In this document: positions 727-18,886 of the stretch, one piece after another
How the letters are laid out: each line of letters opens with the position of its first letter
Position numbering within the stretch: position 1 is the stretch's first letter
Assembly (NCBI GenBank): GCA_016215705.1
Contig: JACRIR010000052.1
Coordinates: forward strand, 1-18,913
DNA from: Candidatus Poribacteria bacterium
GTDB taxonomy: Bacteria > Abyssobacteria > SURF-5
Length of the DNA: 18,913 nt
Direction of reading: 5' to 3'
Translations under genes and position numbers: made by a program
Notes under the pieces: generated by a model
What the model saw: only the letters and a program-made list of their open reading frames with translations
Told to the model about the DNA's origin: nothing
Database searches by the model: none

Positions 727-947
727 GATGTCTGTGCTTTGGACAGCAGTGCTCGCATTTTACAATTTCGCATTTCGCTAGCATAGTAGTTCAATGGAAA
801 AAGAGGTGTTATTGTGCCCGGACGTGAGGCTTTATGGCGAAGCGCGCCTCGCGTTCAGGACGGCATCTCATTGATGTGTCGCGTTTCACGCCATGCAGAG
901 AAGCAGCAGATCAAAGAAGTGGGGAAACACCAGAAAGGAGATTCAAC

Positions 948-1493
948 ATGTTCAGAAGAAACAGTGCTTTGTTTGTTGCGGTTTTGGTAGTGGTTTTGAT
1001 GATGTTCGGAGGCGCGGTGTATGCGGCTGAGCATCCGGGAACCGCCACTGCGGAACACCCGAAAACGGCAATGAAGTCGGCGTTGACAAAGGCAGACCTT
1101 GCGAGCGCGATCAAGGGATTTGTTGAAAAGGACGCCAAGAGAAGAGGCGGATACTTCCTGGTGTATGACGACGCGGAAAAGAAACCCGTCGCGCTCACCC
1201 TCGTTAAAGTCCATGAGGATCGTCTCTCGAAGGTTTCCGAAAACCTCTATTTTGCCTGCGCAGATTTCAAAGCGACCGATGGCGTCATGTACGATGTTGA
1301 CATTTTCATGATGGGGCCCGATAAGGACAACCTGAAGGCCACGGAGATCACCATCCATAAAGTGGCCGGCAAGGAAAGATACACGTGGGCCGAGGAAGGC
1401 GGAGTATGGAAGAGGATGCCCCTCTCTATGCCCGGCAAATCGGCTGAGCACCCCGCCGGTCACGAACATCCTCAAGGAAGCGAACACAAGTAG
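948..1493 (+). CDS. Small secreted protein with EHP-rich ends, unknown function
   Basis: The protein has 181 residues. The chosen ATG follows AAAGGAG at 934-940 and opens directly into a signal peptide (positively charged MFRR, hydrophobic core, AYA|A-type cleavage near residue 25). The in-frame ATG at 834 would put 38 poorly structured residues before the signal and is rejected. After the signal come two EHP motifs, then a compact domain of about 110 residues (roughly 40-150) with a GGYFLVYDD segment and a conserved-looking FACADFKATDG stretch. The C-terminus carries two more EHP motifs and ends in EHK. The His/Glu-rich tails suggest metal binding, which is inference. I do not know a function. 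It lies about 195 bases upstream of the DsbD-like gene, and I believe similar small proteins occur next to thiol-reductase genes elsewhere, but I cannot verify that here. Confidence 0.8.
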   Translation: MFRRNSALFVAVLVVVLMMFGGAVYAAEHPGTATAEHPKTAMKSALTKADLASAIKGFVEKDAKRRGGYFLVYDDAEKKPVALTLVKVHEDRLSKVSENLYFACADFKATDGVMYDVDIFMMGPDKDNLKATEITIHKVAGKERYTWAEEGGVWKRMPLSMPGKSAEHPAGHEHPQGSEHK

Positions 1494-1540
1494 CGCGTCC
1501 GGAGGGGCGGAGTTCTGAGAGACTGTGACTGTCTTTTGTG

Positions 1541-1572
1541 GGGGCGTCCCGCCTCAGCGGGACTGCGCCCCT
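1541..1572. repeat. Hairpin repeat after the EHP-protein gene
   Basis: The inner arms GTCCCGC and GCGGGAC (1546-1552, 1557-1563) pair across a 4-nt loop. The outer arms GGGGC and GCCCC pair with a 3-nt bulge. It lies about 47 bases past the stop at 1493 and could help end transcription, but no T-run follows. The reverse complement begins TAGGGGCG, like the hairpin at 382-402. Confidence 0.5.
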
Positions 1573-1688
1573 ACAAGAAGAGCACGGATTTTATGCGCCC
1601 AACGCATTTTGGATTCAGGTCTTGACGGTCTGTTGCCCCTCAAACGCCGCCAAAGGCTGACCGAGGGAAGGAGAGGAGTGCCGGTGCA

Positions 1689-4067: not shown

Positions 4068-4200
4068 CCGCAAACTTATTCGCATGGTATTTTCGGACCC
4101 TTTGCGCGTCGCACGTGTGATTGAATTGGCGCCTACAGAATTTCGGGAAATCTTTTCTGGGAGTCTGTCTGCTTAGCGATGAGGACGGATCTCGCCGCAC
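4068..4200. other. Intergenic stretch before the regulator promoter
   Basis: I see no gene, clear terminator or repeat in these 133 bases. They separate the DsbD-like gene from the promoter starting at 4201. Confidence 0.5.
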
Positions 4201-4229
4201 TTGACAAAAAAGAAAGTCGCAGTTATAAT
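4201..4229 (+). promoter_or_regulatory. Consensus sigma-70 promoter of the Rrf2 gene
   Basis: TTGACA at 4201-4206 and TATAAT at 4224-4229 are separated by exactly 17 bases. Both hexamers match the consensus perfectly. The expected transcription start is near 4236, giving a leader of about 40 nt before the ATG at 4277. A promoter this strong is usually held down by a repressor, which fits autoregulation by the Rrf2 protein (inference). Confidence 0.85.
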
Positions 4230-4235
4230 TAGGCC

Positions 4236-4270
4236 ATTAAAGATATTAAATAGCTTAAATAGCGTATTTA
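4236..4270 (+). promoter_or_regulatory. Candidate operator in the leader of the Rrf2 gene
   Basis: TTAAA recurs at 4237, 4246 and 4255, a 9-bp period, and TTAAATAGC is directly repeated at 4246-4263. TAAATA-GCG-TATTTA at 4256-4270 is a perfect inverted repeat. The block starts at the predicted transcription start and ends 6 bases before the ATG. Rrf2 regulators often bind AT-rich dyads and control their own genes, so this is a candidate autoregulatory site. No clear Shine-Dalgarno sequence precedes the ATG. Confidence 0.45.
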
Positions 4271-4276
4271 TCCACC

Positions 4277-4693
4277 ATGGAAATCTCAAAAGCGGCTATC
4301 ACTGCAATTCACGGCCTTGTCTATCTCGCCAATAATGGCAGCGAAACACTCATGGACGTGCGCAAAATCGCCGACGACCTCGCAATTCCTTACGGATATC
4401 TCGCAAAAATCCTTCAGCGAGTGTCGCGCTCTCACCTCATTGATTCCGTTCGCGGCCCTCATGGCGGCTATCGTCTGGCGCTCGACCCTGCGAAGATCAG
4501 TCTTCAGAACATCATTGAGTCAGTTGATGGACCCGTTGTAGTCGGCAGATGCGAGCTTGCGCCAGGTTCACAGTGCCGCCGGTTTGACCGTTGCAAGATT
4601 CGACGGCAACTTGACAAGGTAAAAAAGCAGGCATGGGAAGCATACGGCGAGATCACATTGGATAAATTCAGCGACCAGTTTCTGAGCGTATAG
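4277..4693 (+). CDS. Rrf2-family transcriptional regulator with Fe-S-type cysteines
   Basis: The protein has 138 residues, the usual family length. The N-terminal winged helix (about 1-70) has the family signature: the recognition-helix region IPYGYLAKILQRV (37-49) and the wing motif RGPHGGYRLA (59-68). Cys92, Cys100 and Cys106 give C-x7-C-x5-C. From memory this matches the spacing in RirA (91/99/105) and differs slightly from IscR (92/98/104), so a sensory [4Fe-4S] or [2Fe-2S] cluster responding to iron, oxygen or NO is likely but unproven. It stands between the thiol-transport genes and the respiratory cluster, 128 bases before the first gene of that cluster, and is the obvious local regulator. 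Candidate target sites are at 4256-4270 and 4717-4732. Confidence 0.9.
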   Translation: MEISKAAITAIHGLVYLANNGSETLMDVRKIADDLAIPYGYLAKILQRVSRSHLIDSVRGPHGGYRLALDPAKISLQNIIESVDGPVVVGRCELAPGSQCRRFDRCKIRRQLDKVKKQAWEAYGEITLDKFSDQFLSV

Positions 4694-4716
4694 CCAAACT
4701 GTATCGGAGCAGCCGA

Positions 4717-4732
4717 CCTACTTGCAAGTAGG
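4717..4732. promoter_or_regulatory. 16-bp palindrome upstream of the respiratory operon
   Basis: CCTACTTG and CAAGTAGG form a perfect, loop-free palindrome between the Rrf2 gene and the operon it precedes. A possible -10 (TAGAAT, 4740-4745) follows, with no good -35 hexamer 17 bases before it. The palindrome would cover the -35 area. It may be an operator of the adjacent Rrf2 protein or of another dimeric regulator. It is too short and lacks a T-run, so it is not a convincing terminator of the Rrf2 gene. Confidence 0.45.
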
Positions 4733-4756
4733 CCTGTTGTAGAATAAACGTAGTTG

Positions 4757-4800
4757 CCTTTAATTGGGGACAAGATAGCGCATGACGTCCCCGACAAAGG
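4757..4800. repeat. Decayed copy of the GGGGAC palindrome family
   Basis: The left arm is CCTTTAATTGGGGAC and the right arm GTCCCCGACAAAGG, with a shared GCGCATG-like centre. It is 44 bases long against 45 for the intact copies at 15790-15834 and 16802-16846, and aligns with them almost end to end, but its arms no longer pair fully. It ends 21 bases before the GTG start of the FAD oxidoreductase gene. Confidence 0.65.
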
Positions 4801-4821
4801 GTTTCCGAGGAGTTCGCATCG

Positions 4822-6696
4822 GTGAAAACGGTCCCCCTTTTCAAGGTAACGATCCCGGATCACAGCTATTGGCGCAGCCAAATCAATTGCCAGAATGCTT
4901 GCCCGGTTCACACCGACGCCAGAGGATACGTGCGGGCAATAGCCTCGGGCGACTTCGAGCTTGCATACCTCATTGCCCGCGGACCAAACCCGCTTGCATC
5001 CATTTGCGGGCGCATTTGTGGCGCGCCCTGCGAAGCTGCATGCCGCCGCAGCTCGGTTGACAGGCCAATCGGTATTCGCCCTCTCAAACGATTTGCCGCG
5101 GGACACTCCGGTCCCGAGGTATGGGAGACCAAAGGCGACTATTTTGGCGATTGGCTCAAAGAGAGAATCATCCCTCAACTCTGCCAGAGTCGCGACGAGT
5201 TGCTCTGGTTGATCCGTCGTTCCGGCGAACCTCTCTCTCGCCCTTTAAAGGTCGCGATCATCGGATCGGGCCCGGCCGGATTGGCCTGCGCCCATGATCT
5301 TGCTCTGTTGGGCATCAATCCCGTCATTCTCGAAATGGAACCTGTGCCTGCAGGCATGCTCTATGTTGGAGTACCGGAATATCGTTTGCCTCGTGACGTG
5401 ATTCGTGCGGAAGTGAGCGTGATCGAATCTCTTGGCGTGGAGATTCAATGCGGGGTGGAAGTCGGCAAGGATGTGACATTCGATTCCTTGCAGTCAGAAT
5501 ACGATGCCACCGTAATTGCCGTCGGCGCCAAGCGCTCACGCGGCTTGCCTCTGCCTGGCGTGCAAGGGCCGGGCGTGATGGGAGGAGTAGATTTCCTTCG
5601 CGATGTCGCCTTGCGCAATCCTTTGGAGTTGGGCGCCAACGTGGTTGTGATAGGGGGAGGGAATGTCGCCTATGACGTGGGGCGCACCGTCCTCAGGCAG
5701 GCATATTTCGATATGGCGCGCACCGCGGTTCGTCAGCCGCGCGTGCACGAAGTCCACCTGTGTTGCCTTGAATCACTGATGGAAATGCCTGCCGACGACG
5801 TCGAGATTATCGAGGGCGCTGAGGAAGGCATCGCGCTCCATAACAGTTTCGGGCCGAAGGAGATCGTGCGCGATGGGCAGGGACGCGTGACCGGAGTGAC
5901 TTTCCAAAAAGTGCTCCGCGTCTATGACGAGAACAAGAAGTTCGCACCGCTGTTCGATTCAAGTTCCTTGACCACGATCGAATGCGATACCGTCCTGATT
6001 GCAGTCGGACAATCGACTGATCTGTCCTTTATTGATCCCGCTCGTCATGGGGTCGCAATAAGTGAGCGCGGAATTCCTGTGGTAGAACAGAGCACTCTTG
6101 CCGGCGCCGCGAGAGGCGTCTTTTTCGCCGGCGACGTGGCTCACGGTCCCGGCTTGATGATACATGCAATTGCCAGCGGCAAGAAGGCTGCCCGGTCAGT
6201 GTATGAATACCTCACCGGTCAAAGTATCGAGCCGAAGACACTCGAATTCCATCTTGAGTTGCCCAACTACAAACGCGAAACGGGCTACGAGCGTATCGCT
6301 CGTATCGATATTCCTGCTTCCGACCCGAAGGAACGTGTCCGCCGCCAGGACATATGCGTCGAGTCCGGCTATTCCGAGCCCATGGCGCGGACGGAGGCCT
6401 CCCGCTGCCTGGATTGTGGTGTCAATACAATTTTCGATTCCGATAAATGCGTTCTCTGTGGAGGGTGCGCAGAGGTCTGCCCGACTCTATGTCTAAGACT
6501 CGTTTCAATTGAGAATCTGGAACAGGATGACGGGATGCACAGGGCGGTCGAGTCGGTATCGGTGCGTCCCGGCGAGCCGATCTCAGCCATCATCAAGGAT
6601 GAAGAGAGATGCATCCGGTGCGCTTGCTGCGCACAACGCTGCCCTACGGGCGCGATCACTATGGAACGGTTCTGTTTCCGGGAGAGTTGGCCATGA
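4822..6696 (+). CDS. FAD/NAD(P) oxidoreductase with three Fe-S regions (GltD-like core plus ferredoxin)
   Basis: The protein has 624 residues, starting at GTG after GAGGAG at 4808-4813. Residues 1-140 form the GltD/dihydropyrimidine-dehydrogenase-type Fe-S domain with Cys23, Cys27, Cys62, Cys66, Cys70 and Cys74. FAD binding is shown by IIGSGPAGLA (146-155) and NAD(P) binding by VVIGGGNVAYDVG (275-287), and FAGDVAHGPGLMIHA (435-449) is the second flavin motif. After about 520 come SRCLDC (Cys529, Cys532), then two ferredoxin motifs: Cys543/546/549/553 and Cys597/600/603/607. It is cytoplasmic with no signal peptide. Its stop overlaps the ATG of the Rieske gene, so it is translationally coupled to the cytochrome b complex. 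The likely role is electron exchange between NAD(P)H or ferredoxin and the Rieske/b complex; anammox Rieske/b complexes include NAD(P) oxidoreductase subunits of this kind. Direction of flow is unknown. Confidence 0.9.
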   Translation: MKTVPLFKVTIPDHSYWRSQINCQNACPVHTDARGYVRAIASGDFELAYLIARGPNPLASICGRICGAPCEAACRRSSVDRPIGIRPLKRFAAGHSGPEVWETKGDYFGDWLKERIIPQLCQSRDELLWLIRRSGEPLSRPLKVAIIGSGPAGLACAHDLALLGINPVILEMEPVPAGMLYVGVPEYRLPRDVIRAEVSVIESLGVEIQCGVEVGKDVTFDSLQSEYDATVIAVGAKRSRGLPLPGVQGPGVMGGVDFLRDVALRNPLELGANVVVIGGGNVAYDVGRTVLRQAYFDMARTAVRQPRVHEVHLCCLESLMEMPADDVEIIEGAEEGIALHNSFGPKEIVRDGQGRVTGVTFQKVLRVYDENKKFAPLFDSSSLTTIECDTVLIAVGQSTDLSFIDPARHGVAISERGIPVVEQSTLAGAARGVFFAGDVAHGPGLMIHAIASGKKAARSVYEYLTGQSIEPKTLEFHLELPNYKRETGYERIARIDIPASDPKERVRRQDICVESGYSEPMARTEASRCLDCGVNTIFDSDKCVLCGGCAEVCPTLCLRLVSIENLEQDDGMHRAVESVSVRPGEPISAIIKDEERCIRCACCAQRCPTGAITMERFCFRESWP

Positions 6697-7160
6697 GCAG
6701 CTTACGAAAACCGCAACCTGTCCCTCGGCGCGATTTTCTGGGGGCCGCTGCCCTGATGACCTGCGGGGCTACACTTGGACTGGCGACGGTCGGAATGGCG
6801 CGGCTGCCATTCCCGGCTGTCATTGCGGGTGAGTCCAGCAAAATAAAGATTGGGCGGCCTGACGACATTGCGATGGGAGAGGAACGCTGGGTTCCATCCG
6901 CACGCGCATTCGTTTTCCGTGACAAAGATGGGGTTCACGCAATCTCGGGCGTATGCACGCATTTGGGATGCATTGTCTCACGCGCGCCGACGGGATTCGC
7001 TTGCCCCTGTCATGGCTCCCGCTTCGGCCCACAAGGTGAGGTAACGAAAGGGCCGGCCCCATCAGCGCTGCCGTGGCTCGAGATATCACTGGCGCCGGAC
7101 GGGCAGTTAGTCGTGGACGTGGAAAGCAGAACAGCGACCGGGTCTAGATTTCGCGTGTAG
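6693..7160 (+). CDS. Tat-type Rieske [2Fe-2S] protein
   Basis: The protein has 155 residues. The ATG overlaps the preceding stop (ATGA). An in-frame upstream ATG at 6609 would lie inside the previous gene and precede the Tat signal by 28 residues, so it is rejected. The N-terminus has PRRDFLG (11-17) and a hydrophobic helix (18-36), an uncleaved Tat anchor typical of Rieske proteins. Cluster ligands are Cys88, His90, Cys104 and His107, and Cys93/Cys106 form the usual disulfide (CTHLGC, CPCHGS). Residue 111 is Phe (CHGSRF) where high-potential Rieske proteins have Tyr; Ser109 is kept. Loss of the Tyr hydroxyl generally lowers the potential, which would suit menaquinol. It pairs with the cytochrome b encoded 9 bases downstream. 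Confidence 0.95.
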   Translation: MSSLRKPQPVPRRDFLGAAALMTCGATLGLATVGMARLPFPAVIAGESSKIKIGRPDDIAMGEERWVPSARAFVFRDKDGVHAISGVCTHLGCIVSRAPTGFACPCHGSRFGPQGEVTKGPAPSALPWLEISLAPDGQLVVDVESRTATGSRFRV

Positions 7161-7169
7161 GGGGATGAA

Positions 7170-8726
7170 ATGGTTGCGTCGATCGAGAACACTCCGTCTG
7201 CTTTGAAGACCTTTGCGGAAAATCTCAAGAGAGCTCCGATTCGATTGCGCGAATCGGTGTTCCGACACGATTGGCCGGATACTGATCGGACACGCTCTCA
7301 GGCAGTCTTCGCAAACTTCTTTCTGCACCTGCACTCGACACGCATCCACGAACGAACATTGCGGTTCTGGTCCACTTGTGGAATGGGTGTAGGGGCGTTG
7401 GCGAACTTCGTGCTGCTCACAGTCACGGGGATTCTGCTTATGGTCTACTACAAGCCAAGCACGGACCTTGCCTATCAGTCCATCAAAGATATCACCTTTA
7501 TCGTTCCGACCGGTCAGTTCATCCGGAATATTCATCGCTGGTCTGCGCACATGATGGTAGTATTCGTGTTGCTTCACATGGTCAGAGTTTTCTATACGAG
7601 CGCCTACAAAAGCCCTCGCGAATTCAATTGGCTCGTCGGAATGGCGCTGCTCGTACTCACGCTCGGACTCAGCTTTACTGGATATCTCTTGCCGTGGGAC
7701 CAATTGGCTTATTGGGCGATAACAATCGGTTCTAACATCGCCCAATCGCCTCGTGAGGTCACCGATGCGATCGGTGTCACCCGATTCTTTGATCCGGGTG
7801 GCCTACAAAAACGCATATTGCTCGGAGCGGATACCGTCGGTCAGGAGGCGGTCACGCGATTCTATCTCCTTCACGTGATGGTGCTGCCGCTCTTCATGAT
7901 TGGGCTCATAGGCGTGCATTTTTGGCGCGTGCGAAAAGATGGAGGACTGGCGCGCCCCGCTGACGAGCCCGGGACACCCGTCCGCTTGCTGACCGGACAA
8001 ACAGTATCTTTCGCGCCCGCGCCGGAGAAGACGTACGGCCTCATGGCGTTGGTGCGCGGGAAGACGCCGCAGGTGGACCGTGGCCCCGAGCATACGATAA
8101 CAGCATGGCCTAACGCCTTCTATGCGGAAATGGCGGTTCTGATGGCCACTTGCACGATTTGTCTCGTGCTGGCATTGATTGCCGACGCGCCGCTGAAGGA
8201 AATTGCAAATCCGGGTGTGCCGGAGAATCCCGCCAAAGCACCCTGGTATTTTCTCGGACTCCAGGAATTGGTTTCCTATTCTGCCTTCATGGGAGGGATC
8301 GGCATTCCCACTCTGGTTTTGCTCGGACTTGGGCTGATTCCGTTTCTTGACAGCGAGGCGGACACAGGTGGTCTCTGGCCGACCAGCTTGACTCACCGAC
8401 TGTTGATTGCGGGCAGCGCCTTCTTCAGCGCCTTTGTGGTGATTGCATTGCTGGCATTCACAATCCGATTCGGCTGGCTTCGGAGTTGGTTCCCGCATAT
8501 CCCGCAACTCATCATTATTGTCCTCAATCCCGGAACGCTGTTGGTTGCTCTCTTTGCAGAGTTCTCGCTGTGCATAATGAACAGATACAACTCGACACGC
8601 GCCGGAGCGGTGGCGCTTTTCACATGCTTCATTGTGGCGTTTGTCATCCTGACTTATGTGGCAACGGTACATCGAGGCCCCAACTGGAGTTTCTATTGGA
8701 GTCGGAGCCAATGGCCAATTCACTGA
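7170..8726 (+). CDS. Cytochrome b of a Rieske/cytochrome b complex, full length
   Basis: The protein has 518 residues with a GGGGATG-type ribosome site just upstream. The quinone-reactive, dihaem membrane subunit carries both the b6-like N-terminal and subunit-IV-like C-terminal halves in one chain. Haem b ligands are His122 and His136 in helix B (HRWSAH...LLH) and His235 and His250 in helix D. The second pair is separated by 14 residues, as in cytochrome b6, where bc1-type proteins have 13. GYLLPWDQ (171-178) is the usual Qo-side motif. The PEWY Qo-site motif is replaced by APWY (357-360), so its Glu is absent; KAPWYF-type variants occur in other bacterial b subunits. An N-terminal extension of about 65 hydrophilic residues precedes helix A. 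No cytochrome c1 gene follows; the nonahaem gene overlaps the 3' end. Confidence 0.95.
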   Translation: MVASIENTPSALKTFAENLKRAPIRLRESVFRHDWPDTDRTRSQAVFANFFLHLHSTRIHERTLRFWSTCGMGVGALANFVLLTVTGILLMVYYKPSTDLAYQSIKDITFIVPTGQFIRNIHRWSAHMMVVFVLLHMVRVFYTSAYKSPREFNWLVGMALLVLTLGLSFTGYLLPWDQLAYWAITIGSNIAQSPREVTDAIGVTRFFDPGGLQKRILLGADTVGQEAVTRFYLLHVMVLPLFMIGLIGVHFWRVRKDGGLARPADEPGTPVRLLTGQTVSFAPAPEKTYGLMALVRGKTPQVDRGPEHTITAWPNAFYAEMAVLMATCTICLVLALIADAPLKEIANPGVPENPAKAPWYFLGLQELVSYSAFMGGIGIPTLVLLGLGLIPFLDSEADTGGLWPTSLTHRLLIAGSAFFSAFVVIALLAFTIRFGWLRSWFPHIPQLIIIVLNPGTLLVALFAEFSLCIMNRYNSTRAGAVALFTCFIVAFVILTYVATVHRGPNWSFYWSRSQWPIH

Positions 8727-11044
8727 CGAATAACTCCCGCGACAACACTGGCCCGCGCGCTGTCATTGCCGAAGCGCCGGTCCCGATTTTCGACCCGGTC
8801 ACCCCGGAGGGCCGCAGGGCGCGCTGGGCTCTTCTTGTCACTTCACTTGTTACCTTGGTCTGCTTGCTCGCCGCTATTCTGTCAGAACACTATCTGAAAC
8901 CATGGCGGATGTATCAACGCGAATACAAGGCTCTTCTCGCCGTCAAGGCGCAAGCCGAAGGAAAGAAAACGCCTCCTTTCAAAGCTGAAATCAAGCAGAT
9001 CACGTCGGCTTCACTAGGAGTGACGGATCGCTGCACAACTTGTCATCTCGCGGTAGATGACCCGTCCATGGCGAAAGAGGCCGAGCCTTTTCGCTCGCAC
9101 CCGAAATGGGTTCTCGACCTGCATCCAATCGAGAAATTCGGTTGCGCCTCATGCCACGGCGGTCAAGGGCTTGCCACGTCCACAGATGACGCGCACGGCC
9201 ATGTGCCCCACTGGGAAGACATGCTGATTCCTGCCGGATACTATGAGGCGGGCTGCGGAGGGTGCCATACGTTCTTGAGGGTTCCCGGCGAAGAATCTCT
9301 GGCGCGAGGCGCGCGACTATTCGAGAGTAAGGATTGTTTCGCGTGTCATCGCATTGACGGCAGGGGACGCGGAAACGGGCCGGACCTCTCTGAATTCGGC
9401 GCAAGACGTATTCAAGAAGACTGGCATCAAAAACATCTTGTGCTTCAGGAACGGAGCCCCGACGAGATATGGCAAGAGAGTTATGGTCCGCTTGATCCCT
9501 CCGAGATAGGCGCGATCAATGCGTATCTTGGAGGATTGGTTCGCGCGCCAAAACTAATAGAAGCCAAGGCCGCTTTCTTGAGCAAAGGATGTTTGGGCTG
9601 CCACCGGATCAATGGCGTTGGTGGCGAAGACGGCCCGGACCTTTCCGCAGCGGGGCGAAAGAATATAGCCAAACTGGACTTTTCGATGATTCGTGGGAAG
9701 CATGATCTGGCGGGATGGCATAAGGCACACCTGAAAGCGCCGGCGCAAGTTGTGCCGGACAGCCAGATGCCGCAGCCAACGCTTGACGACAAGCGACTTG
9801 ATTTGGTCACACTCTACCTTCTGTCGCTCCGCGATGAAACTGCATCGATGAACAGGTGGCCGACAGACCGGCTCGAGGCGCTGCGTCTTGGCGAGCGTGA
9901 ATTCGTTGACGACGGAGAATCGCTTTTCAATGCGTTCTGCAATGGCTGCCACGGTCCGGAAGGATTCGGAGCGCGATTCGGAGTATCGACACAAGCGTTT
10001 CCCGCGATTGCACACCCTGAGTTCCTGGCCATTGCGTCGAATCGATTCATACGGCAGTCGCTGATGGACGGGAGAACCGGACGCCGGATGCCCGCATGGG
10101 GAGCAAAAGAGGGCGGCCTGCGTGTGAAGGAGGTTGATGCGCTTGTGGAGTATCTGCGCTCGCGAATGCCCTCAGCGCCATCATGGGAGGAAGTTTCCAG
10201 CGTTACTCCTGACCCGGCTCTTGGCGCTCGCTTGTACCGCGAGACGTGCGCAGTTTGCCACGGCGTGAAAGGGGAAGGAGCAATCGGACCGGCGCTTTCG
10301 CACCAGGTCTTTCAGCGAACGGTGGAGCCACAGTTTATTTACCGCATGCTAACGATGGGCCGGGCGGATACGGCGATGGGTAGTCAACCAAGGTTTGACG
10401 CGCGCGACATGGCCTCAGTAATCAGGTATGTCCGAAGCTGGCGCAAGGAAGCTCCCTTAAAACTGCCTGCCCTCCCACCCGAAAGATCGACAGAAAACGG
10501 TGAGGCAGTGTATGCGCGTTCCTGCGCTTCATGCCACGGGCGACAGGGCGAAGGTGGAATAGCCTCGAGTGTCACTAGCTTCGTTCTCCTCGCTTCCGCA
10601 TCGGATGGATTCATGGCTGCAGCCGTTAAGCTTGGACGTTGCGTTCCGCCGAGACTTCTCCCCGGAGACGCCGCAAGAGCTCTCGAAGCGCCCAAAGTGT
10701 CAGACCAGGAACTTGCTGATGCTATCGAGTATCTGCGAAGACTCGGGCGCTTTGACGCAAAACAATCGCGGGGGCGGCCTGCCCGGGGCGATGCAGCGAA
10801 TGGGAGTGTGCTTTTTGCGCAGGCATGCGCCGGCTGTCATGGGAACGGAGGCCGAGGCGGTTCGGCGCCGGAGCTCGCGAATGCTGCGTTATTGGCTGCT
10901 GCCACCGATGGATATCTCGAGGCATCGATAATCCGTGGCCGGCCTTCGGTGGGGATGCCGGCCTTCGGCAACGACAGCATTAGTTACAAGAAACTGATCG
11001 CCGGGCAGGTGGACGATATTGTTTGCTATATGCGAACGATGTGA
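8711..11044 (+). CDS. Membrane-anchored nonahaem cytochrome c
   Basis: The protein has 777 residues. The ATG at 8711 overlaps the end of the cytochrome b gene by 16 bases. Residues 39-57 form one TM helix anchoring a large periplasmic domain. Nine CXXCH haem sites lie at 108, 145, 182, 209, 294, 410, 513, 605 and 706. The first three belong to a His-rich N-terminal unit. Sites 4 and 5 are a duplicated module (CHRI-G-G--GPDLS), and sites 6-9 are tandem class-I-like modules. Met ligands are visible for haem 5 (Met353, QMPQ), 6 (Met460, RMPAW), 7 (Met556) and 9 (Met749, GMPAF). Modules 4 and 8 lack Met at the matching place; haem 8 has CVPPRLLP there. Standing where a bc1 operon has cytochrome c1, it probably takes electrons from the Rieske protein and passes them to the Mo enzyme or to soluble carriers. 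Confidence 0.9.
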   Translation: MANSLTNNSRDNTGPRAVIAEAPVPIFDPVTPEGRRARWALLVTSLVTLVCLLAAILSEHYLKPWRMYQREYKALLAVKAQAEGKKTPPFKAEIKQITSASLGVTDRCTTCHLAVDDPSMAKEAEPFRSHPKWVLDLHPIEKFGCASCHGGQGLATSTDDAHGHVPHWEDMLIPAGYYEAGCGGCHTFLRVPGEESLARGARLFESKDCFACHRIDGRGRGNGPDLSEFGARRIQEDWHQKHLVLQERSPDEIWQESYGPLDPSEIGAINAYLGGLVRAPKLIEAKAAFLSKGCLGCHRINGVGGEDGPDLSAAGRKNIAKLDFSMIRGKHDLAGWHKAHLKAPAQVVPDSQMPQPTLDDKRLDLVTLYLLSLRDETASMNRWPTDRLEALRLGEREFVDDGESLFNAFCNGCHGPEGFGARFGVSTQAFPAIAHPEFLAIASNRFIRQSLMDGRTGRRMPAWGAKEGGLRVKEVDALVEYLRSRMPSAPSWEEVSSVTPDPALGARLYRETCAVCHGVKGEGAIGPALSHQVFQRTVEPQFIYRMLTMGRADTAMGSQPRFDARDMASVIRYVRSWRKEAPLKLPALPPERSTENGEAVYARSCASCHGRQGEGGIASSVTSFVLLASASDGFMAAAVKLGRCVPPRLLPGDAARALEAPKVSDQELADAIEYLRRLGRFDAKQSRGRPARGDAANGSVLFAQACAGCHGNGGRGGSAPELANAALLAAATDGYLEASIIRGRPSVGMPAFGNDSISYKKLIAGQVDDIVCYMRTM

Positions 11045-11058
11045 GCAGACTATTCGGC

Positions 11059-11064
11059 AGGAGG
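11059..11064 (+). promoter_or_regulatory. Strong Shine-Dalgarno of the Mo-enzyme gene
   Basis: AGGAGG ends 7 bases before the ATG at 11072. It is the clearest ribosome site within the respiratory operon and fixes the start of the catalytic subunit immediately before its Tat signal. Confidence 0.8.
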
Positions 11065-11071
11065 AAAGAAG

Positions 11072-14000
11072 ATGTCAAATCAGGCGGAGCACGGTTCGGG
11101 AGGCATAAACCGACGCGATTTCGTGAAGATGGCGTCGGCCCTCGGGTTTGCCGGGTATCTTTCCCAATATCCCTGGCTGTGGGCTGAAGCTGCGCAGAAC
11201 CCTCTGGAATCCTATCCGAACAGGGACTGGGAGAAGGTCTATCGTGATCTCTATAAACCCGACAGCACATACTCTTTCCTTTGTGCTCCTAACGATACCC
11301 ACAACTGTCTGCTGCGCGCACACGTGAAAAACGGAGTGGTTGTTCGCATAGGCGCTTCCTACGGCTACGGCAAAGCCGAAGATATTTACGGAAACAAGGC
11401 TAATGCCCGGTGGGACCCGCGCTGCTGCCAGAAGGGGCTAGCGCTGACACGCCGTTTCTATGGCGACCGCCGCGTGAAAGGGCCAATGGTCCGAAAGGGT
11501 TTCCGCGAATGGGTCGAGAAAGGATTCCCACGCGACCCGTCTACCGGCAAGCCTCCCGCTGAATATTTCAATCGCGCGCGTGATTCGTGGCAGAGACTCG
11601 AGTGGGACCAGGCTGCAGACGTTGTCGCGCGAGCTCTCATAAACATTGCACAAACCTATACGGGTGAAGAAGGCGCGCGACTCCTGAAGGCGCAAGGTTA
11701 CGATGAGGAAATGATCGTAGCCACAAAGACCGCCGGAACACAATGCCTGAAATTCCGCGGCGGCATGCCGCTGCTGGGCATGACGCGCGTTTTCGGCATG
11801 TATCGCATGGCAAATTCGCTCGCGCTCCTCGACAAACATATTCGCGGCGTATCGGAGGCCGATGTGCTCGGAGGACGCGGATGGGACAACTATTCCTGGC
11901 ATACCGACCTGCCGCCGGGCCACCCCATGGTCACGGGTCAGCAGACGGTGGAGTTCGACCTGGACTCGTGCGAGCACGCCGACATGATTATTGTGTGGGG
12001 CATGAATTGGATTACGACCAAGATGCCGGACTCGCACTGGCTCACCGAAGCGCGCGTGAAGGGCGCCCGCGTCGTCGTGATCGCCTGTGAATACAGCGCG
12101 ACCACGAGCAAGGCCGATGAAGCCATCGTCGTCAGGCCGGGCACGACGCCTGCGCTAGCTCTTGCTCTCTCCAATGTGATTGTTCAGGAAAAACTGTACG
12201 ACGTCGATTTCATTAAGCGCTTTACCGATTTGCCGCTGCTTGTCAGACATGACAACCTGCAATTCTTGAAGGCTGCGGACGTTATCCCCAACTACAAGAA
12301 CGCGACTCTCGACAATATGACACATGTCTTGAGGTCGGATGAGAAAAGCGCTCCGCCGCATAAACAGGTCGAACAGATCATCCCCCAGAAACTGCGCGAA
12401 GAGTGGGGCGACTTCGTGGTCTGGGACGTGCACAAGAAAGCGCCTGTGGCGATAAGCCGGGACAAAGTAGGCAAGTATTTTGAGGAGTCAGGTATTTCGC
12501 CTGCGCTCGAGGGCGAATTCAAGGTGACCCTGGCTGACGGCAAGAAGGTTGAAGTCACGACCGTTTTCAGTGTCATAAAGAAATACCTTGCCGACAACTT
12601 CTCGCCGGAAAATGCCGAGGGGATAACATGGGCTCCGCGCAACGCGATTGTTTCGCTGGCGCGTGAAATCGCGAAGCGCAATGGAAAGACGCTAATGGCC
12701 GTAGGCATGGGCCCAAACCAGTTCTTCAACAACGACCTGAAGGACCGCGCCATCTTCCTACTCGCTGCGTTGACGGGCAATGTAGGCCGTATCTCGGGCA
12801 ACGTCGGCTCATATGCGGGCAACTATCGTGTCGCCCTTTTCAACGGACTGGGCCAGTACGTGAATGAGAATCCGTTTGACATAGAGACCGACCCGAAGAA
12901 ACCGGCGCGGCCAAAACAATACTGGCGCCCCGAGTCGGCGCACTACTATAACCATGAGGATCACCCGTTGCGCATCGGCGGCAAACTGTATACCGGCAAG
13001 ACGCATATCCCGACTCCAACCAAATCGCTTTGGTTCGCGAACGCAAACTCAATTCTCGGCAATGTGAAATGGCATTATAATGTAGTGCACAACGTGCTTC
13101 CGAAGATAGAGATGATCGCCGTGAACGAATGGTGGTGGAGCACCTCGTGTGAACATGCCGACGTTGTTTTCGCCGCCGACTCGTGGGCGGAGACGAAGAA
13201 CCCGGACATGACCGCTTCGGTTACGAATCCATTCTTGACGCTTTTTCCGGAAACGCCTCTGCCCCGCATTCACGACAGCCGAGGCGACATCGAGATAATA
13301 GCCGCTGTCGGCAAACGCATCGGAGACCTCATCCGAGATTCGCGTTTCAAGGAATACTGGAAATTTGTGGATGAGCGCAAAGTCGGAGTATATTTACAGC
13401 GCATTCTCGACCACAGCAGTGCGACCGCTGGTTACTCTTTCAGCGACCTTCACGACAAAGCGAAGGAAGGCATCCCCGCCTTGATGATGGGGCGGACGAT
13501 GCCGCGAACTGTTGGTTACGAGCAGACGCAGGAAAGCGCGCCCTGGTACACAAAGACGGGGCGCCTCGAGTTCTATCGCGATGAAAAGGAGTTCATTGAA
13601 AATGGCGAGAATCTGCCGGTTCATCGTGAGCCCGTCGACTCGACTTTCTACGAGCCGAATGCGATTCTTGCGGCGCCGCATCCGTTCATCAAGCCTCTTG
13701 GTCCCGCGGACGTGGGGCTCGATCCCTTGGACGTAAGCTCGGAAACGAGGCAAGTGCGCAACGTGCTCAGATCGTGGCCCGAGCTTGCCGCGACCCGCCA
13801 TCCGCTGATGGAGAAGGGGTATCAGTTTGTATTTCACACGCCCAAGTACCGGCACGGCGCTCACACCACGCCTATTGATACGGACATGGTGGCGGTATTG
13901 TTCGGGCCGTTCGGCGACATTACGCGGGCCGACAAACGGATGCCGTTTGTGAGCGAGGGATACGTTGATATGAACCCGCAGGACGCGAAAGAGCTTGGAA

Positions 14001-14548
14001 TCGAAGACGGCGATTATGTGTGGGTGGACGGCGACCCCTCGGATCGGCCTTACCGCGGATGGAAACCCGAAGACCCCGACTACAAGGTTGCGCGACTCCT
14101 GTGTCGGGTGCGCTATTATCCCGGCACTCCTCGCGGAGTAACGCGCATGTGGTTCAATATGTACGCGGCCACACCGGGATCAGTCAAGGCGCACGAGACC
14201 CGCTCCGACGGCCTGGCAAAGAACCCGGATACCAACTATCAGGCGATGTTCCGCTATGGAAGTCATCAAAGCGCGACGCGCGGGTGGCTCAAGCCGACGC
14301 ACATGACCGACTCGCTCGTGCGAAAGGACATTGCAGGCCAGACCATCGGCAAGGGATTCATGCCGGACGTGCACTGTCCCACGGGCGCGCCGCGCGAGTC
14401 GTTTGTCAAGATAACAAAAGCCGAACCGGGTGGAATCAACGGCAAGGCACTTTGGCGCCCCGCTGCGCTCGGCATACGGCCCACATATGAAACTGACGCA
14501 TTCAAACGATACCTGGCAGGCGAATACGTGACCGTCAAGAAGGGGTAA
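11072..14548 (+). CDS. Tat-exported molybdopterin oxidoreductase, NarG/NxrA-like catalytic subunit
   Basis: The protein has 1158 residues and is a type II DMSO-reductase-family enzyme. [17 protein letters not shown] (12-28) is a Tat signal, so the enzyme acts in the periplasm, unlike membrane-bound NarG. The N-terminal Fe-S site reads Cys71-x3-Asp75-x3-Cys79 with the last ligand at Cys118 or Cys119; an Asp stands where many relatives have Cys. Asp279 in [10 protein letters not shown] matches the Mo-coordinating Asp of NarG (YDWYCDLPPA). The C-terminal pterin-binding domain starts near 910, with a [15 protein letters not shown] stretch near 970. The length is close to nitrite oxidoreductase alpha subunits of Nitrospira and anammox bacteria as I remember them, and longer than ethylbenzene or dimethylsulfide dehydrogenase. 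The substrate could be nitrate, nitrite, chlorate, selenate or another oxyanion; sequence alone does not decide. The gene is followed after 4 bases by its Fe-S subunit. Confidence 0.92.
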
Positions 14549-14552
14549 TCTT

Positions 14553-15683
14553 ATGGCTCGTGTTTACAACTGGCAAATCGGCCGCGAGATGAGCTATTGG
14601 TACGGCGAGGCGAGACCCAAGAGGCAGTTCGCGGCGGTCTTTGACACCAATAAATGTATCGCATGCCAGACGTGCACGCTGGCGTGCAAGACGACTTGGA
14701 CCTCGGGCCGCGGGCAAGAATACATGTTCTGGAACAATGTCGAGAGCAAGCCGTACGGGGCATACCCTATAGCGTACGACTCGCGCATAATGGAACTGCT
14801 TGGGCCGCAAACATGGGAGGGCGAGCGATACGAGGGGCGCACGATCTTTGAGGCCGCCCCCGCGGGCGAACGATTGCTCGGCTACCATCCTGAGACGGCG
14901 GACTACGCACATCCCAATCTGGGGGAAGACGAGATCGCAGGTTCAGTCGATGGGGGCATGTCGATAGATTTGCTTCACCCCGTGTGGATGTTCTATCTGG
15001 CGCGAATCTGCAATCATTGCACGTATCCAGCGTGTCTCGCCGCGTGTCCGCGCGGCGCAATTTATAAGCGGCAAGAGGACGGCATTGTGCTCATCGATCA
15101 GAAGAACTGCAGGGGTTATCGAGAATGTGTTCGCGCGTGCCCTTATAAGAAGACGTTTTTCAACTCGCGCACGCTTGTGTCCGAAAAATGTATCGGTTGT
15201 TTTCCTCTTGGTGAGAACGACACGCAGCCGCGCTGCTTTACCGAGTGCATAGGCAAGATACGGATTCGCGGGTGGATCAACAAGCCCTCGGAAGCGCGTG
15301 AGGATAACCCGATCGACTATCTTGTGCATATCAAGAAGGTGGCTCTGCCGCTGATGCCGCAACTGGGGCTCGAGCCGAACGTGTATTACATTCCGCCCGT
15401 CCATGTGCCCGAGGCGTTCCTTGTGCAGCTTTTCGGACCAGGCTCACGCCGCGCAGTTGAGACCTATCGCCGCGCAAACGAGAAGAACAGTAAACTTGCA
15501 GCCCTCATCAATTTGTTCGGCTGCACGAGCCATGTTGTCCCTAGGTTCGAGGCAAAGGACGGCTATGTCAGCGCCTTGAGCGACAAGGGGGAAAAGATTG
15601 TGACGGCGCCTGTGCGCGAGGCCGTCGTCGTCAGGACAGCCTTCGATGCACGGTACGGAGTCCCTCGTTCGAATATTACCTGA
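14553..15683 (+). CDS. Four-cluster Fe-S electron-transfer subunit, NarH/NxrB-like
   Basis: The protein has 376 residues, with a start 4 bases after the catalytic subunit and AAGGGG before it. It relays electrons between the Mo subunit and the haem b subunit. Four cysteine groups are seen: Cys35/38/41/45; Cys153/156/161/165; Cys186/192/196 with Tyr189; and Cys213/216/228/232. In the third group ([15 protein letters not shown]) Tyr189 replaces a cysteine. NarH has Trp in this place and holds a [3Fe-4S] cluster, so one [3Fe-4S] and three [4Fe-4S] clusters are expected. There is no signal peptide; in this family the beta subunit is exported bound to the Tat-bearing alpha subunit. It is shorter than E. 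coli NarH and ends without a C-terminal extension, as is typical of soluble periplasmic relatives. Confidence 0.92.
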
Positions 15684-15702
15684 GCAGAGAAATCCCCCCT
15701 GT

Positions 15703-15720
15703 CCCCCTTTGCAAAGGGGG
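15703..15720. repeat. CCCCCTTTGCAAAGGGGG palindrome, copy 1
   Basis: A perfect 18-bp palindrome lies 19 bases after the stop of the Fe-S subunit gene, preceded by AATCCCCCCTGTC. A near copy lies after the chaperone gene (17515-17535). The hairpin is stable, but an AGAAAGAGGA purine tract follows and no T-run, so termination is doubtful. It is probably a dispersed repeat. Confidence 0.6.
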
Positions 15721-15789
15721 AGAAAGAGGAGTGTTTCTTAGGTGCGTTTGACCCGCGCGTGCGACGCGATTAATCATGAAAGAAACGGC

Positions 15790-15834
15790 CCTTAATTTGG
15801 GGACACCATGCCGCATGGTGTCCCCAAATTAAGG
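15790..15834. repeat. 45-bp palindrome, intact copy A
   Basis: Perfect 21-base arms flank a CCG centre; the arms carry CCTTAATTTGGGGACAC and end in CATG. It ends 29 bases before the ATG of the haem b subunit gene. It differs from copy B (16802-16846) at arm positions 2 and 9, both compensated on the other arm. If transcribed it folds into a long hairpin just before the ribosome site. It could be a REP-type element mobilised by a RAYT transposase elsewhere, or a cis-acting RNA hairpin. Confidence 0.85.
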
Positions 15835-15863
15835 AAACAATCGCCGGTTTCGTAGGAGGAATA

Positions 15864-16781
15864 ATGCTAATGCTATATAGACCGATTATCCCATGTATGA
15901 CGTTTGCCGGTATTTTGATTGCGGCGCTCGCCGGATGTTCCGGCGGCGCGAAGAAGCCGGCTCCCGCGGCCAAGAACGTTGTTGCGCTGTACGTAAAAAG
16001 CGGCGTTGGCGAGCCCAAGCCGGGAGACAAAGTGTGGCAACAGGCGCCGCTCGCGGCTGTCGCCATGCTCCCGCAAGACCTTACCGATCCGAAGCTAATG
16101 GACTCTGGGATTCCTTCCATTCACGTAAAGGCTCTGTGCGACGACAAGAATATTGCGTTCAACATCGAGTGGTATGATTCTACGCCGGACACCGCCGAGG
16201 TCGAGGGGAAGTTCCCGGATGCCGTGGCCGTGCAACTACCGCCTGCGCCCGGAGGCGAGACACCGGACCCTACGATGGGCCAGGCCGGGCGTCCGGTGCA
16301 TATTCACTTTTGGAAGGCTTCGTATCAGCAAAATCTCGACCGGGGCGAGTGGAGCCTGCGGCAGAATTTCCCGAATGCGAGCGTGGACCATTACCCGTCC
16401 GATGCAGCAACGGACCAGGCGGACAAAGAGAAGCTGAGTGAGCAATTTACGACCGGACTTGCAGCGGGCAATCCGATCACGCGCAAGAGAACCTCGAGCG
16501 TGGACGATTTGATCGCGGAAGGATTCGGCACGTTGAGTTTCTTGCCGATGCAGGTGTCGAAGGGCTGGAGCAGTTGGCGAAACCTCAAATGGTCTGTCGT
16601 AGTTCTCAGTCCGCTAGCAGTTGCTGACTGGCCCGGCGGGCCAGGACTCAAAGCGGGACAAAACAGCTTTGTTGCCTTTGCCGTGTGGGATGGAAGTCGA
16701 AAACAGGCAGGCTCGCGAAAGATGCGGAGCGTTTGGACGCCTCTGGCATTGGGGGCGAGCGACTATACCGGACAGAGATGA
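15864..16781 (+). CDS. Lipoprotein haem b subunit, EbdC/NxrC-like
   Basis: The protein has 305 residues from the ATG at 15864. The ATG at 15870 is as likely, since AGGAGGA at 15854-15860 is then better spaced. The N-terminus is a lipoprotein signal with lipobox ALAGC and Cys25 as the lipidated residue, followed by a Gly/Ala/Pro-rich linker. Residues from about 40 to 300 resemble the beta-rich haem-binding domain of ethylbenzene dehydrogenase gamma and related cytochrome c-552/DMSO-reductase-like proteins. Family features seen are a DxxVWQQAP-like start, HIHFWKA (about 152-158) and the closing LAVADWPGGPGLKAGQNSFVAFAVWDGS region. The haem is probably b-type with Met/Lys ligation, as there is no CXXCH; I cannot assign the ligands. 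It would tether the Mo enzyme to a membrane and connect it to the nonahaem cytochrome. Palindrome copies A and B bracket the gene. Confidence 0.85.
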   Translation: MLMLYRPIIPCMTFAGILIAALAGCSGGAKKPAPAAKNVVALYVKSGVGEPKPGDKVWQQAPLAAVAMLPQDLTDPKLMDSGIPSIHVKALCDDKNIAFNIEWYDSTPDTAEVEGKFPDAVAVQLPPAPGGETPDPTMGQAGRPVHIHFWKASYQQNLDRGEWSLRQNFPNASVDHYPSDAATDQADKEKLSEQFTTGLAAGNPITRKRTSSVDDLIAEGFGTLSFLPMQVSKGWSSWRNLKWSVVVLSPLAVADWPGGPGLKAGQNSFVAFAVWDGSRKQAGSRKMRSVWTPLALGASDYTGQR

Positions 16782-16801
16782 ATGGTTTCCCGCCGGACGT
16801 G

Positions 16802-16846
16802 CGTTAATTAGGGGACACCATGCCGCATGGTGTCCCCTAATTAACG
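16802..16846. repeat. 45-bp palindrome, intact copy B
   Basis: Perfect 21-base arms flank a CCG centre; the left arm starts CGTTAATTAGGGGACAC and ends CATG. It lies 20 bases after the stop of the haem b subunit gene and 22 bases before the GTG of the chaperone gene. The bases after it (CGGTTTC then T-GGAGG) also resemble the bases before the ribosome site downstream of copy A. Confidence 0.85.
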
Positions 16847-16868
16847 GCGGTTTCTTGGGAGGTGGCGC

Positions 16869-17504
16869 GTGACAAGAATAAGCGAGGTGCTAGCTGCCGG
16901 CGCGTCATGGAGATTTTTGTCGCTTTTGTTCCGGTGTCCGAACAGCGCGCTCGTTGCAGCGATCAAAACACTGCAAGAGGAAATTGCGCCGGAATTGCGT
17001 TCCGAGGCGCACGCGCTTGTGGAGTTATTGGAAGACTCGAATCTTGAGGCATCGTATCACGTTCTGCTCGGCAGCGGCGGCGTCATTTCGCCGTACGAGT
17101 CGGATTATCAGAGCGTCGGTGAGGAAGGTGTCCGCGAGAGAGGCGTGATACTGGGCGACGTGGCCGGCTTTTACAGGGCGTTCGGTTTTGACCCGTCAAA
17201 AGAAATGCCGGAGGCGCCTGACCACGTGTCTCTCGAAATCGCGTTTGTGAGTCATTTGAAACTGAAAGAAGCGTTTGCTTTAATGCAACTTGAAAACGAA
17301 CCATACCAGGTATGCGTCGCCGCCGAGAAGAAGTTTCTGGAGGAACATTTGCTCACCTGGCTTCCGCAATTCCTTGAGCGCATCCACGAGCAGGATGCTC
17401 ACCCATTCTACAAGAAAGCCGCAGACATCATCAAAGGTTATCTCCTGTTGAATCCCCAAATTGTTTCGCCTCGCGAAGAAGTCCTTGGGAAAGAAGAATC
17501 TTAA
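16869..17504 (+). CDS. TorD/NarJ-family assembly chaperone for the Mo enzyme
   Basis: The protein has 211 residues with a GTG start after GGGAGG at 16856-16861. It is a cytoplasmic all-helical chaperone that binds the Tat signal and apo-catalytic subunit so that molybdenum cofactor is inserted before export. Family marks visible are SPYESDYQ (74-81, the YES/YxS region) and PDHVSLEIAFVSHL (117-130, matching the DHxxxELxFxxxL signature). There is no signal peptide or TM helix. As the last gene of the cluster it matches the NarJ, DdhD or EbdD position in other type II Mo-enzyme operons and supports the Tat-export reading of the catalytic subunit. Confidence 0.93.
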   Translation: MTRISEVLAAGASWRFLSLLFRCPNSALVAAIKTLQEEIAPELRSEAHALVELLEDSNLEASYHVLLGSGGVISPYESDYQSVGEEGVRERGVILGDVAGFYRAFGFDPSKEMPEAPDHVSLEIAFVSHLKLKEAFALMQLENEPYQVCVAAEKKFLEEHLLTWLPQFLERIHEQDAHPFYKKAADIIKGYLLLNPQIVSPREEVLGKEES

Positions 17505-17626: not shown

Positions 17627-18886
17627 ATGAAGAAGACATTCTATGGCTGGTGGGTGGTGGTCGCGGCTTTCTTCACCCTTTTCGTCTGTACGGGGATAGG
17701 TTTTTTCTCTTTTTCAGTTTTCTTGAAGGCCATCGAGGCAGAGGAAGGATGGAGTCGAACCAGCCTTTCGACTGCGGGCGCGATCGCTTCACTGGCGGCT
17801 GGTTTTGCCACGCCCGGTGTCGGCTGGGCAGTCGACCGCTTCGGCGCAAGGGCCGTCATGTTACCGGGCGCTCTCCTGATGTCTGCATGCTATCTGTTGC
17901 TGGGGCAGACCGGGACTATCCATCAACTATATGCTCTTTTTCTCATGGTGGGCATAGGAATGGCGTGCGCCACCATACTTCCATGCCAGACACTGGTTTC
18001 TCGATGGTTTGACAAGAAACGTGGCCGCGCAATGGGTATGCTCATGGTGGCCAACGGAGTAGGCGGAGTGGTATGGACAACCGTTTCGGCCCGACTGATT
18101 CAAGCCGTTGGATGGAGAAACGCGTACGAGATTCTAGGTGTAGTAATTGCCGCAGTGGCGCTCCCTTTGATCGCGCTCATGATCCGAAGCTCGCCTCAAT
18201 CGATGGGCTTGCTGCCCGATGGCGCAGAAGACCCTTTGCCGGGCGCCAAGACTTCTGACGCCGAGGAGCCAGGCTATACGACGCGAGAGGCATTCAGAAC
18301 AGTAAGCTTCTGGCTCATTTTCTTGGCTACGTTCGTCGTCGTGTTTGCATCGTCGGGATTCGTTTTGCACGTGGTTGCCTTCCTGTCGGACCGAGGACTG
18401 CCGGACAGGCGCGCGGCAGATGTTTGGGGCGCAGCGCTTGGATTGAGCATTGTCGCTCGAATTTTATTTGGGTTTCTTTCGGAAAAATATCAGAAGCGAT
18501 TCTTTCTGTTTGGTGCAAACCTGGTTCGGATGTGCTGCTCGGCGCTGCTTGTTCTTTTTGCCCTTGGGTTCGTGCCCCGAACGGTAGGGGCGCTGCAGGT
18601 AATTTTTCTCTACGGACTTCCGATGGGTTGCTACGCCGTGGTGAGCCCGCTGCTAATCAGCGAGACGTTTGGTGTGAAATCTTTCGGAAAACTGATGGGG
18701 CTGTTGGGAATTCCATACACCATTGGAATGGCTCTTGGACAGGTCTCCGGTGGATACTTCTTCGATACGAAAGGCAATTACAACGTCGCCTACTCGATAT
18801 TCGGGGCGGCTTTTCTTATAGGCGGCATAGCGACCCTTCTTGCAAAACCCTGCTTCCTGCTCGACTCCACCGCAAAGAAGGATTGA
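17627..18886 (+). CDS. MFS transporter, monocarboxylate/oxalate-formate-like
   Basis: The protein has 419 residues, with hydrophobic segments consistent with 12 TM helices in two halves joined by a charged loop at about 195-218. FYGWWVVVAAFF (5-16) is a common start of monocarboxylate/OFA-type MFS carriers. The motif-A loop is GWAVDRFGARAVM (64-76), and WFDKKRGRAMG (127-137) is the matching TM4-TM5 loop. The substrate is probably an organic anion, but sequence does not fix it; it lacks the nitrate-signature motif of NarK-type carriers as far as I can see. It has its own promoter and follows the operon-end repeat, so it is probably not part of the respiratory operon. Confidence 0.85.
   Translation: MKKTFYGWWVVVAAFFTLFVCTGIGFFSFSVFLKAIEAEEGWSRTSLSTAGAIASLAAGFATPGVGWAVDRFGARAVMLPGALLMSACYLLLGQTGTIHQLYALFLMVGIGMACATILPCQTLVSRWFDKKRGRAMGMLMVANGVGGVVWTTVSARLIQAVGWRNAYEILGVVIAAVALPLIALMIRSSPQSMGLLPDGAEDPLPGAKTSDAEEPGYTTREAFRTVSFWLIFLATFVVVFASSGFVLHVVAFLSDRGLPDRRAADVWGAALGLSIVARILFGFLSEKYQKRFFLFGANLVRMCCSALLVLFALGFVPRTVGALQVIFLYGLPMGCYAVVSPLLISETFGVKSFGKLMGLLGIPYTIGMALGQVSGGYFFDTKGNYNVAYSIFGAAFLIGGIATLLAKPCFLLDSTAKKD

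Follow-up and report, generated by a model that had tools for sequence, protein, structure and literature searches.

An eight-gene cluster lies in an 18,913-nt stretch of DNA from a Candidatus Poribacteria bacterium (the window; one whole contig, JACRIR010000052.1 or C229, of a 5.47 Mb draft genome). Judging from its genes, the cluster joins two features that have been described apart, namely the Rieske/cytochrome b–nitrate reductase (Rieske/b–Nar) pairing of haloarchaea and the NAD(P)-linked Rieske/b–multihaem cytochrome c complexes of anammox bacteria. Open reading frame (ORF) calling and family scans confirmed all eight genes at 4822–17504 on the + strand, adjacent and in the order that the initial annotation had given: flavoprotein, Rieske protein, cytochrome b, multihaem cytochrome c, the alpha, beta and gamma subunits of a molybdenum (Mo) enzyme, and a TorD-family chaperone. 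These parts, their order, their cofactor ligands and the clade to which alpha belongs are read directly from the sequence. The arrangement suggests that the cluster could let nitrate respiration help make NAD(P)H.

Conservation of the cluster

A scan of 84,980 species genomes returned at least 532 relatives of alpha, of which the best 80 were used. The window's alpha belongs to a clade with a support of 98 (44 rows), or 100/99 in a smaller, careful tree. To count gene order, we considered the 35 clade members whose sequence reaches 3.8 kb or more upstream of alpha. The flavoprotein–Rieske–cytochrome b–multihaem c block (the front end) lies 5′ of alpha in 33 of these, and in the other two (L040 and L053) it does not adjoin alpha. 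The possibility raised in the initial annotation, that the gene order is unique to one genome, thus fails. As the order recurs in 33/35 clade members, the pairing is more than chance, and we consider the association of Rieske/b with the Mo enzyme to be real, old and conserved. The loci with conserved order come from Planctomycetota, Acidobacteriota, Myxococcota and the window's own small phylum, which has three genomes in the collection, all with an alpha at 81% identity or more. At 24 of the 33 loci, an in-frame Rieske start codon shares bases with the flavoprotein stop codon. Between loci, every subunit diverges in step with alpha (pairwise distances, r = 0.88–0.92), a pattern in which joint function and joint inheritance would look alike. 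A scan of viral contigs for alpha gave no match. Two sequences titled Acidimicrobiia (L043 and L048) fall inside an acidobacterial group; the collection counts the L043 genome among Acidobacteriota, and the titles may be wrong.

The catalytic subunits

Alpha (11072–14548, + strand) is the molybdenum-bis(molybdopterin guanine dinucleotide) catalytic subunit and has a twin-arginine translocation (Tat) signal. It had been annotated as NarGH-type. More than that, it is of the full-length nitrite oxidoreductase (NXR) type: it aligns end to end (residues 13–1155) with NxrA of Kuenenia (7b04_B) at 952 bits, and its matches to PcrA, EbdA and NarG are far weaker. The narG model scores 163.5 bits (curated cut-off, 1084), the ebdA model scores 174.5 bits (curated cut-off, 2000), and alpha is also far under the curated cut-off of TIGR03479. 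The four DMSO_red_II models (alpha, beta, gamma and TorD) all match, each below its curated cut-off, and the gene set and order fit that family.

In the trees, the window's alpha group (100/99), which takes in sequences from Thioploca, Parabeggiatoa, Thiomargarita and Stieleria, separates from the NXR-like rows (100/100) and stands well apart from the EbdA-, PcrA- and NarG-type rows; Kuenenia NxrA is the only named NXR in the careful tree. Because it is sister to the NXR rows, we class alpha as NXR-family and not NXR itself. An alpha from Natronococcus was left unplaced, with a frame problem in its translation and a branch length of 10. This full-length sequence, 48% identical, lies at an unannotated site on Natronococcus occultus plasmid 2 (L102:10001-13485) as a two-piece match and may be frameshifted.

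The active-site residues are those of the Kuenenia enzyme (KsNXR), in which the iron-sulfur cluster FS0 is held by three Cys and one Asp, accompanied by a substrate Asn and a Mo-ligating Asp (PMC8387239). In alpha, the FS0 ligands are C71, D75, C79 and C119, the substrate residue is N74 and the Mo ligand is D279; C71, N74, D75, C79, C119 and D279 align with C67, N70, D71, C75, C115 and D275 of KsNxrA. EbdA carries Ile where Nar and NXR have the substrate Asn (PMC8387239).

Beta (14553–15683, + strand) is the Fe-S electron-transfer subunit and matches NXR-B (7b04_A, E = 3e-106; TIGR03478, 257 bits, under the cut-off). Gamma (15864–16781, + strand) is a haem b subunit (Pfam EB_dh; 7b04_C) and a predicted lipoprotein. 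Its lipobox cysteine C25 is conserved in 31/31 clade members, and its predicted haem ligands M138 (31/31) and K286 (29/31) sit at the positions of M155 and K305 of KsNXR-C. The last gene (16869–17504, + strand) was assigned by family scans to the TorD-family chaperones of type II DMSO-reductase (dimethyl sulfoxide reductase) enzymes. No NarI-like gene occurs in the window, as had been noted.

The front end

The flavoprotein (4822–6696, + strand) is a GltD/NfnL-like NAD(P)/FAD protein with 4Fe-4S motifs in its N-terminal and C-terminal parts, and no export signal was seen in its sequence. Within the clade, the C-terminal cysteine set is kept in 33/33 and the N-terminal set in 31/33. Besides GltD, it resembles the large subunit of NfnI, which carries the bifurcating flavin in Nfn.

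The Rieske 2Fe-2S protein (6693–7160, + strand) is predicted to be Tat-exported. Its start is most likely 6693, where it forms an ATGA overlap with the flavoprotein stop, rather than 6609 as initially annotated. Its best PDB matches, 9rk4 and 9rk3, are taken to be the Kuenenia proteins Kuste4569 and Kustd1480, based on the deposited names and a Tyr/Phe difference (PMC12954380). The measured potentials of the Kuenenia Rieske proteins are +303 and +335 mV, and one serine is said to raise the potential (PMC12954380). This serine is S109 in the window's protein and, like the cluster ligands C88, H90, C104 and H107, is present in 33/33 clade members.

Cytochrome b (7170–8726, + strand) is a single chain that combines the b6 and subunit-IV parts, and its four haem ligands (H122, H136, H235 and H250) are kept in the clade. 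An additional histidine, H53, is conserved in 32/32 and is also found in PcrA-type- and NosZ-linked versions; it is absent from the haloarchaeal and standard bc controls. By analogy with the interface haem modelled in anammox complexes (PMC12954380), H53 is a candidate ligand for a haem of that type. H53, R255 and K256 were also tried as a marker of NAD(P)-linked complexes and rejected, as a Rieske/b–multihaem cluster of Aureibacter has them without an adjacent flavoprotein.

The membrane-anchored multihaem cytochrome c (8711–11044, + strand) starts at 8711 (MANSL...), not 8486. Counted from there, the nine CXXCH motifs that gave it the name nonahaem cytochrome are present, but nine is specific to this lineage: seven are invariant, and most clade members have seven. 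Rieske protein, b6-type cytochrome b, multihaem cytochrome c and NAD(P)/FAD/Fe-S flavoprotein are found together in one cluster, which is the anammox-type combination.

Nitrate as the probable substrate, and probable direction of the reaction

Alpha's substrate is very probably nitrate, and a reductive direction (nitrate reduction) is equally well indicated by the genes found with it in relatives. In L117, which has the full cluster, torD is followed in the same orientation by nrfH (TIGR03153 over the cut-off) and nrfA. In L116, the places of nrfH and nrfA are taken by two convergent genes, which encode four and five CXXCH motifs; the five-haem product is an NrfA match. The related locus L073 has the order alpha–beta–gamma–torD–nrfH–nrfA on one strand. 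Across an even sample of 297 Acidobacteriota, NrfA was found in 17 of the 23 genomes with an alpha at 60% identity or more and in 61 of the 274 others (Fisher p = 8e-7, kinship ignored). It was found in 0/13 genomes with an NXR-like alpha (42–45% identity). The NirK marker TIGR02376 was over its cut-off in no genome scanned.

Other partners of the front end and of alpha

Four genomes of the Acidobacteriota sample lack alpha but encode a close flavoprotein (54% identity or more), and in three of them (L104–L106) the same front end is 5′ of a different alpha. That of L105 is PcrA-type (985 bits to PcrA, 5e7o), L106 shows the same family profile, and that of L104 was assigned by a 26% match and position alone. 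More distant flavoprotein–Rieske–cytochrome b–multihaem c genes lie directly 5′ of clade II nosZ in L112, L113 and L115. As it also precedes a PcrA-type enzyme and clade II nosZ, the front end seems to be an exchangeable module that feeds strongly oxidising reductases of the periplasm.

Several further loci are worth recording. In L110 (7619–15953; similar in L111 and L118), a GltD-like flavoprotein has CcoG and a P-type ATPase for heavy metals as neighbours, an arrangement seen in clusters for cbb3 oxidase maturation. A second Rieske/b–Mo pairing occurs in L019 (G000:C267:40001-52740, approximately 564–12152, mostly on the − strand), where an EbdA-like alpha (766 bits to 2ivf) has gamma, beta, TorD, a split cytochrome b and a multihaem cytochrome c (8 CXXCH) as neighbours, with a Rieske match nearby and no flavoprotein match within the stretch. 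It is one of four EbdA-like enzymes in that genome; the other alphas are in L017, L018 and L020 (G000 C176, C77 and C174), with the C77 copy broken by a TGA. Four EbdA-like alphas suggest an anaerobic hydrocarbon- or steroid-oxidising lifestyle.

Electron route and alternative explanations

In the model that we favour, quinol would be oxidised at the Rieske/cytochrome b complex, and electrons would reach nitrate in the order quinol, Rieske, multihaem c, gamma, beta and alpha. The low-potential electron would pass from the b haems either to the quinone pool (Q-cycle) or to the cytoplasmic flavoprotein and on to NAD(P)H, as proposed for anammox. That Rieske/b would donate electrons to the Mo enzyme can be said with high confidence. 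The initial annotation held that electrons must take the Rieske/b–multihaem route; this is still the best reading of the locus, but "must" was too strong, as related alphas adjoin alternative-complex-III-like genes (L083), an Fe-S membrane protein (L074) or NrfHA (L073). One of these, from the cultured planctomycete Stieleria sedimenti (L083:980-8606, with the alternative-complex-III-like genes upstream of alpha), could be a laboratory model for the enzyme half.

The core of the model, from quinol through Rieske/b to nitrate with an NAD(P) branch that could run in either direction, is probable. In its favour, the nearest solved Rieske proteins come from NAD(P)-linked anammox complexes, and the clade II NosZ partner is a reductase. 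The nitrate/nitrite couple is oxidising enough, on general thermodynamic grounds, to pay for NAD(P)+ reduction. A Rieske/b complex that feeds a periplasmic nitrate reductase has a precedent in Campylobacter (PMC6195509) and a probable one in haloarchaea (PMC4683180). For anammox, NAD(P)+ reduction by quinol bifurcation is proposed and unproven (PMC12954380), and because of that proposal NAD(P)+ is a reasonable electron sink. By this analogy, reduction of NAD(P)+ by bifurcation is a tentative suggestion for the window's cluster, and a stable supercomplex of its two halves is likewise possible without being the expected outcome.

Several points weigh against the model. The co-occurrence statistic for NrfA takes no account of phylogeny, and in the window's genome and its two relatives NrfA and NirK reach no meaningful score. 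In the clade alignment of cytochrome b, no conserved cysteine for a covalent c_N haem was found: every cysteine falls short of 90% conservation, with C70 in 4/32. Since H53 is also in the Aureibacter cluster that has no adjacent flavoprotein, it is not diagnostic and cannot serve as proof. The sequence does not reveal which way electrons flow at the flavoprotein, and the whole model rests on genes and sequence comparison.

Four alternatives were weighed. First, the two halves may merely be co-regulated and exchange electrons through soluble carriers, with no stable supercomplex. This explanation concerns physical association only, is compatible with the core, and has somewhat less than an even chance. 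It fits the related alphas that adjoin other quinol-oxidising or electron-transfer genes, as well as L040 and L053 with no adjacent front end, and fits less well with the tight conservation of order and distances and with gamma being a predicted lipoprotein. Second, within the core, the complex could run a normal Q-cycle while the flavoprotein passes NAD(P)H electrons into the b haems or quinone. NADPH is the donor for GltD-family proteins (established for glutamate synthase), and a standard Rieske/b complex is proven to drive periplasmic nitrate reduction in Campylobacter (PMC6195509). However, NAD(P)+ reduction fits the high potentials measured for the nearest solved Rieske relatives (PMC12954380), and the window's protein retains S109; we consider this version of the NAD(P) branch unlikely. 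Third, the enzyme could be a nitrite oxidoreductase; electrons taken from nitrite would then enter the multihaem c and be driven in reverse through Rieske/b, reaching quinone and NAD(P)+ to serve biosynthesis. This reading draws on the sister relationship between alpha and NXR, on their shared FS0, Asn and Mo ligands, on the bidirectional activity of KsNXR (PMC8387239) and on the failure to detect NrfA and NirK in the window's lineage. It is nonetheless improbable, considering that alpha is outside the NXR rows (100/100 versus 100/99), that the NrfA/nrfHA association of its relatives is lacking for NXR-like alphas, and that NosZ, with which the front end occurs as well, is a reductase. Finally, action on another substrate (e.g., selenate, (per)chlorate or a hydrocarbon) is very improbable: type II DMSO-reductase enzymes span many substrates, and gamma and beta resemble ethylbenzene dehydrogenase too, but alpha has the Asn of Nar and NXR where EbdA has Ile (PMC8387239), it groups well away from the EbdA-, PcrA- and NarG-type rows, and nrfHA adjoins torD in relatives.

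Neighbouring genes

An Rrf2-family regulator (4277–4693, + strand; Pfam Rrf2, E = 9e-30) with a C-x7-C-x5-C cysteine triad ends 128 nt 5′ of the cluster, and Rrf2 is likewise upstream at several clade loci. Further upstream (834–4067) are a small unknown protein and a transglutaminase-DsbD-thioredoxin fusion; partial matches to both lie upstream of an NXR-like alpha in another genome (L015:257-1909). The downstream major facilitator superfamily gene (17627–18886) was considered as a part of the system and rejected: it is unmatched in the relatives' loci, and its family resembles lactate/oxalate-type carriers. An Rfam scan of the window gave no match.

Comparison with known systems

In the accessible part of the open-licence literature, we found no description of the combined flavoprotein–Rieske/b–multihaem–Mo cluster. 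Its enzyme half is most like NXR-ABC of Kuenenia (7b04), with which it shares a full-length alpha, a beta and a gamma, FS0 with 3 Cys and 1 Asp, the substrate Asn, the Mo Asp and the gamma Met/Lys haem ligands. It differs in belonging to a sister clade, in having a predicted lipoprotein as gamma and in its linked Rieske/b front end. Unlike NarGHI, it has no NarI-like gene in the window and its narG score is under the cut-off; unlike ethylbenzene dehydrogenase, its alpha is not EbdA-type, with Asn where EbdA has Ile. The Beggiatoa nitrate reductase (cited in PMC8387239) and the Planctomycetota "putative Nxr" (PMC10732223) are also comparable. The alpha of Parabeggiatoa 4572_84 (L078) shares 61% identity and falls within the same larger clade, and the Planctomycetota sequences were likened by their published description. 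The beggiatoid loci examined, unlike the window, have no Rieske/b–NAD(P) module adjoining alpha. Genes that match Kuenenia NxrA strongly have been interpreted as putative nitrite oxidoreductases (PMC10732223), and with our reading a large clade of NXR-like genes gains a likely role in nitrate reduction, not nitrite oxidation.

The links that had been drawn to haloarchaeal nar operons and to anammox Rieske/b complexes both hold. Campylobacter QcrABC is a Rieske/b complex shown to supply the periplasmic nitrate reductase Nap (PMC6195509), and the same is proposed for Rieske/b and Nap in Caldithrix (PMC5317091); the enzyme there is NapA-type, and the accessible parts of these papers mention no NAD(P) subunit. 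Closer in gene order is the nar operon of Halomicrobium (Rieske, cytochrome b, alpha (NarG), beta (NarH), EB_dh gamma and TorD), in which, unlike in the window, neither a flavoprotein nor a multihaem cytochrome is annotated. As the Halomicrobium alpha belongs to another type (grouped with NarG/PcrA types; 27% identity across 62% of the query), we regard the likeness as shared architecture, not membership.

The front end most resembles the anammox complexes Kuste4569-4574 and Kustd1480-1485 (PMC12954380), which likewise combine a Rieske protein, a b6-like cytochrome b, a multihaem cytochrome c replacing cytochrome f and an NAD(P) oxidoreductase, and whose Rieske proteins are the best PDB matches to that of the window. 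In anammox, b6 and subunit IV are two proteins and the models include c_N haems, whereas here cytochrome b is a single chain and its clade alignment shows no conserved cysteine for such a haem. We also entertain, with less assurance than for bifurcation in this cluster, the broader idea that NAD(P)-linked Rieske/b–multihaem complexes are a general swappable bifurcating front end, which would split quinol electrons between a periplasmic reductase (nitrate, PcrA-type or N2O) and NAD(P)+, such that nitrogen-oxide reduction drives NAD(P)H formation. If so, the window would hold, within the operon, a driving reaction of the kind still unassigned for Kustd1480-1485. Whereas the anammox complexes are paired with a hydroxylamine oxidoreductase (HAO)-like protein or have no assigned acceptor (PMC12954380), the window's operon has its own nitrate-type Mo enzyme. 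The mechanism proposed for anammox but unproven, bifurcation of quinol electrons to form NAD(P)H, is thereby linked to a defined terminal enzyme and could be tested in bacteria outside anammox.

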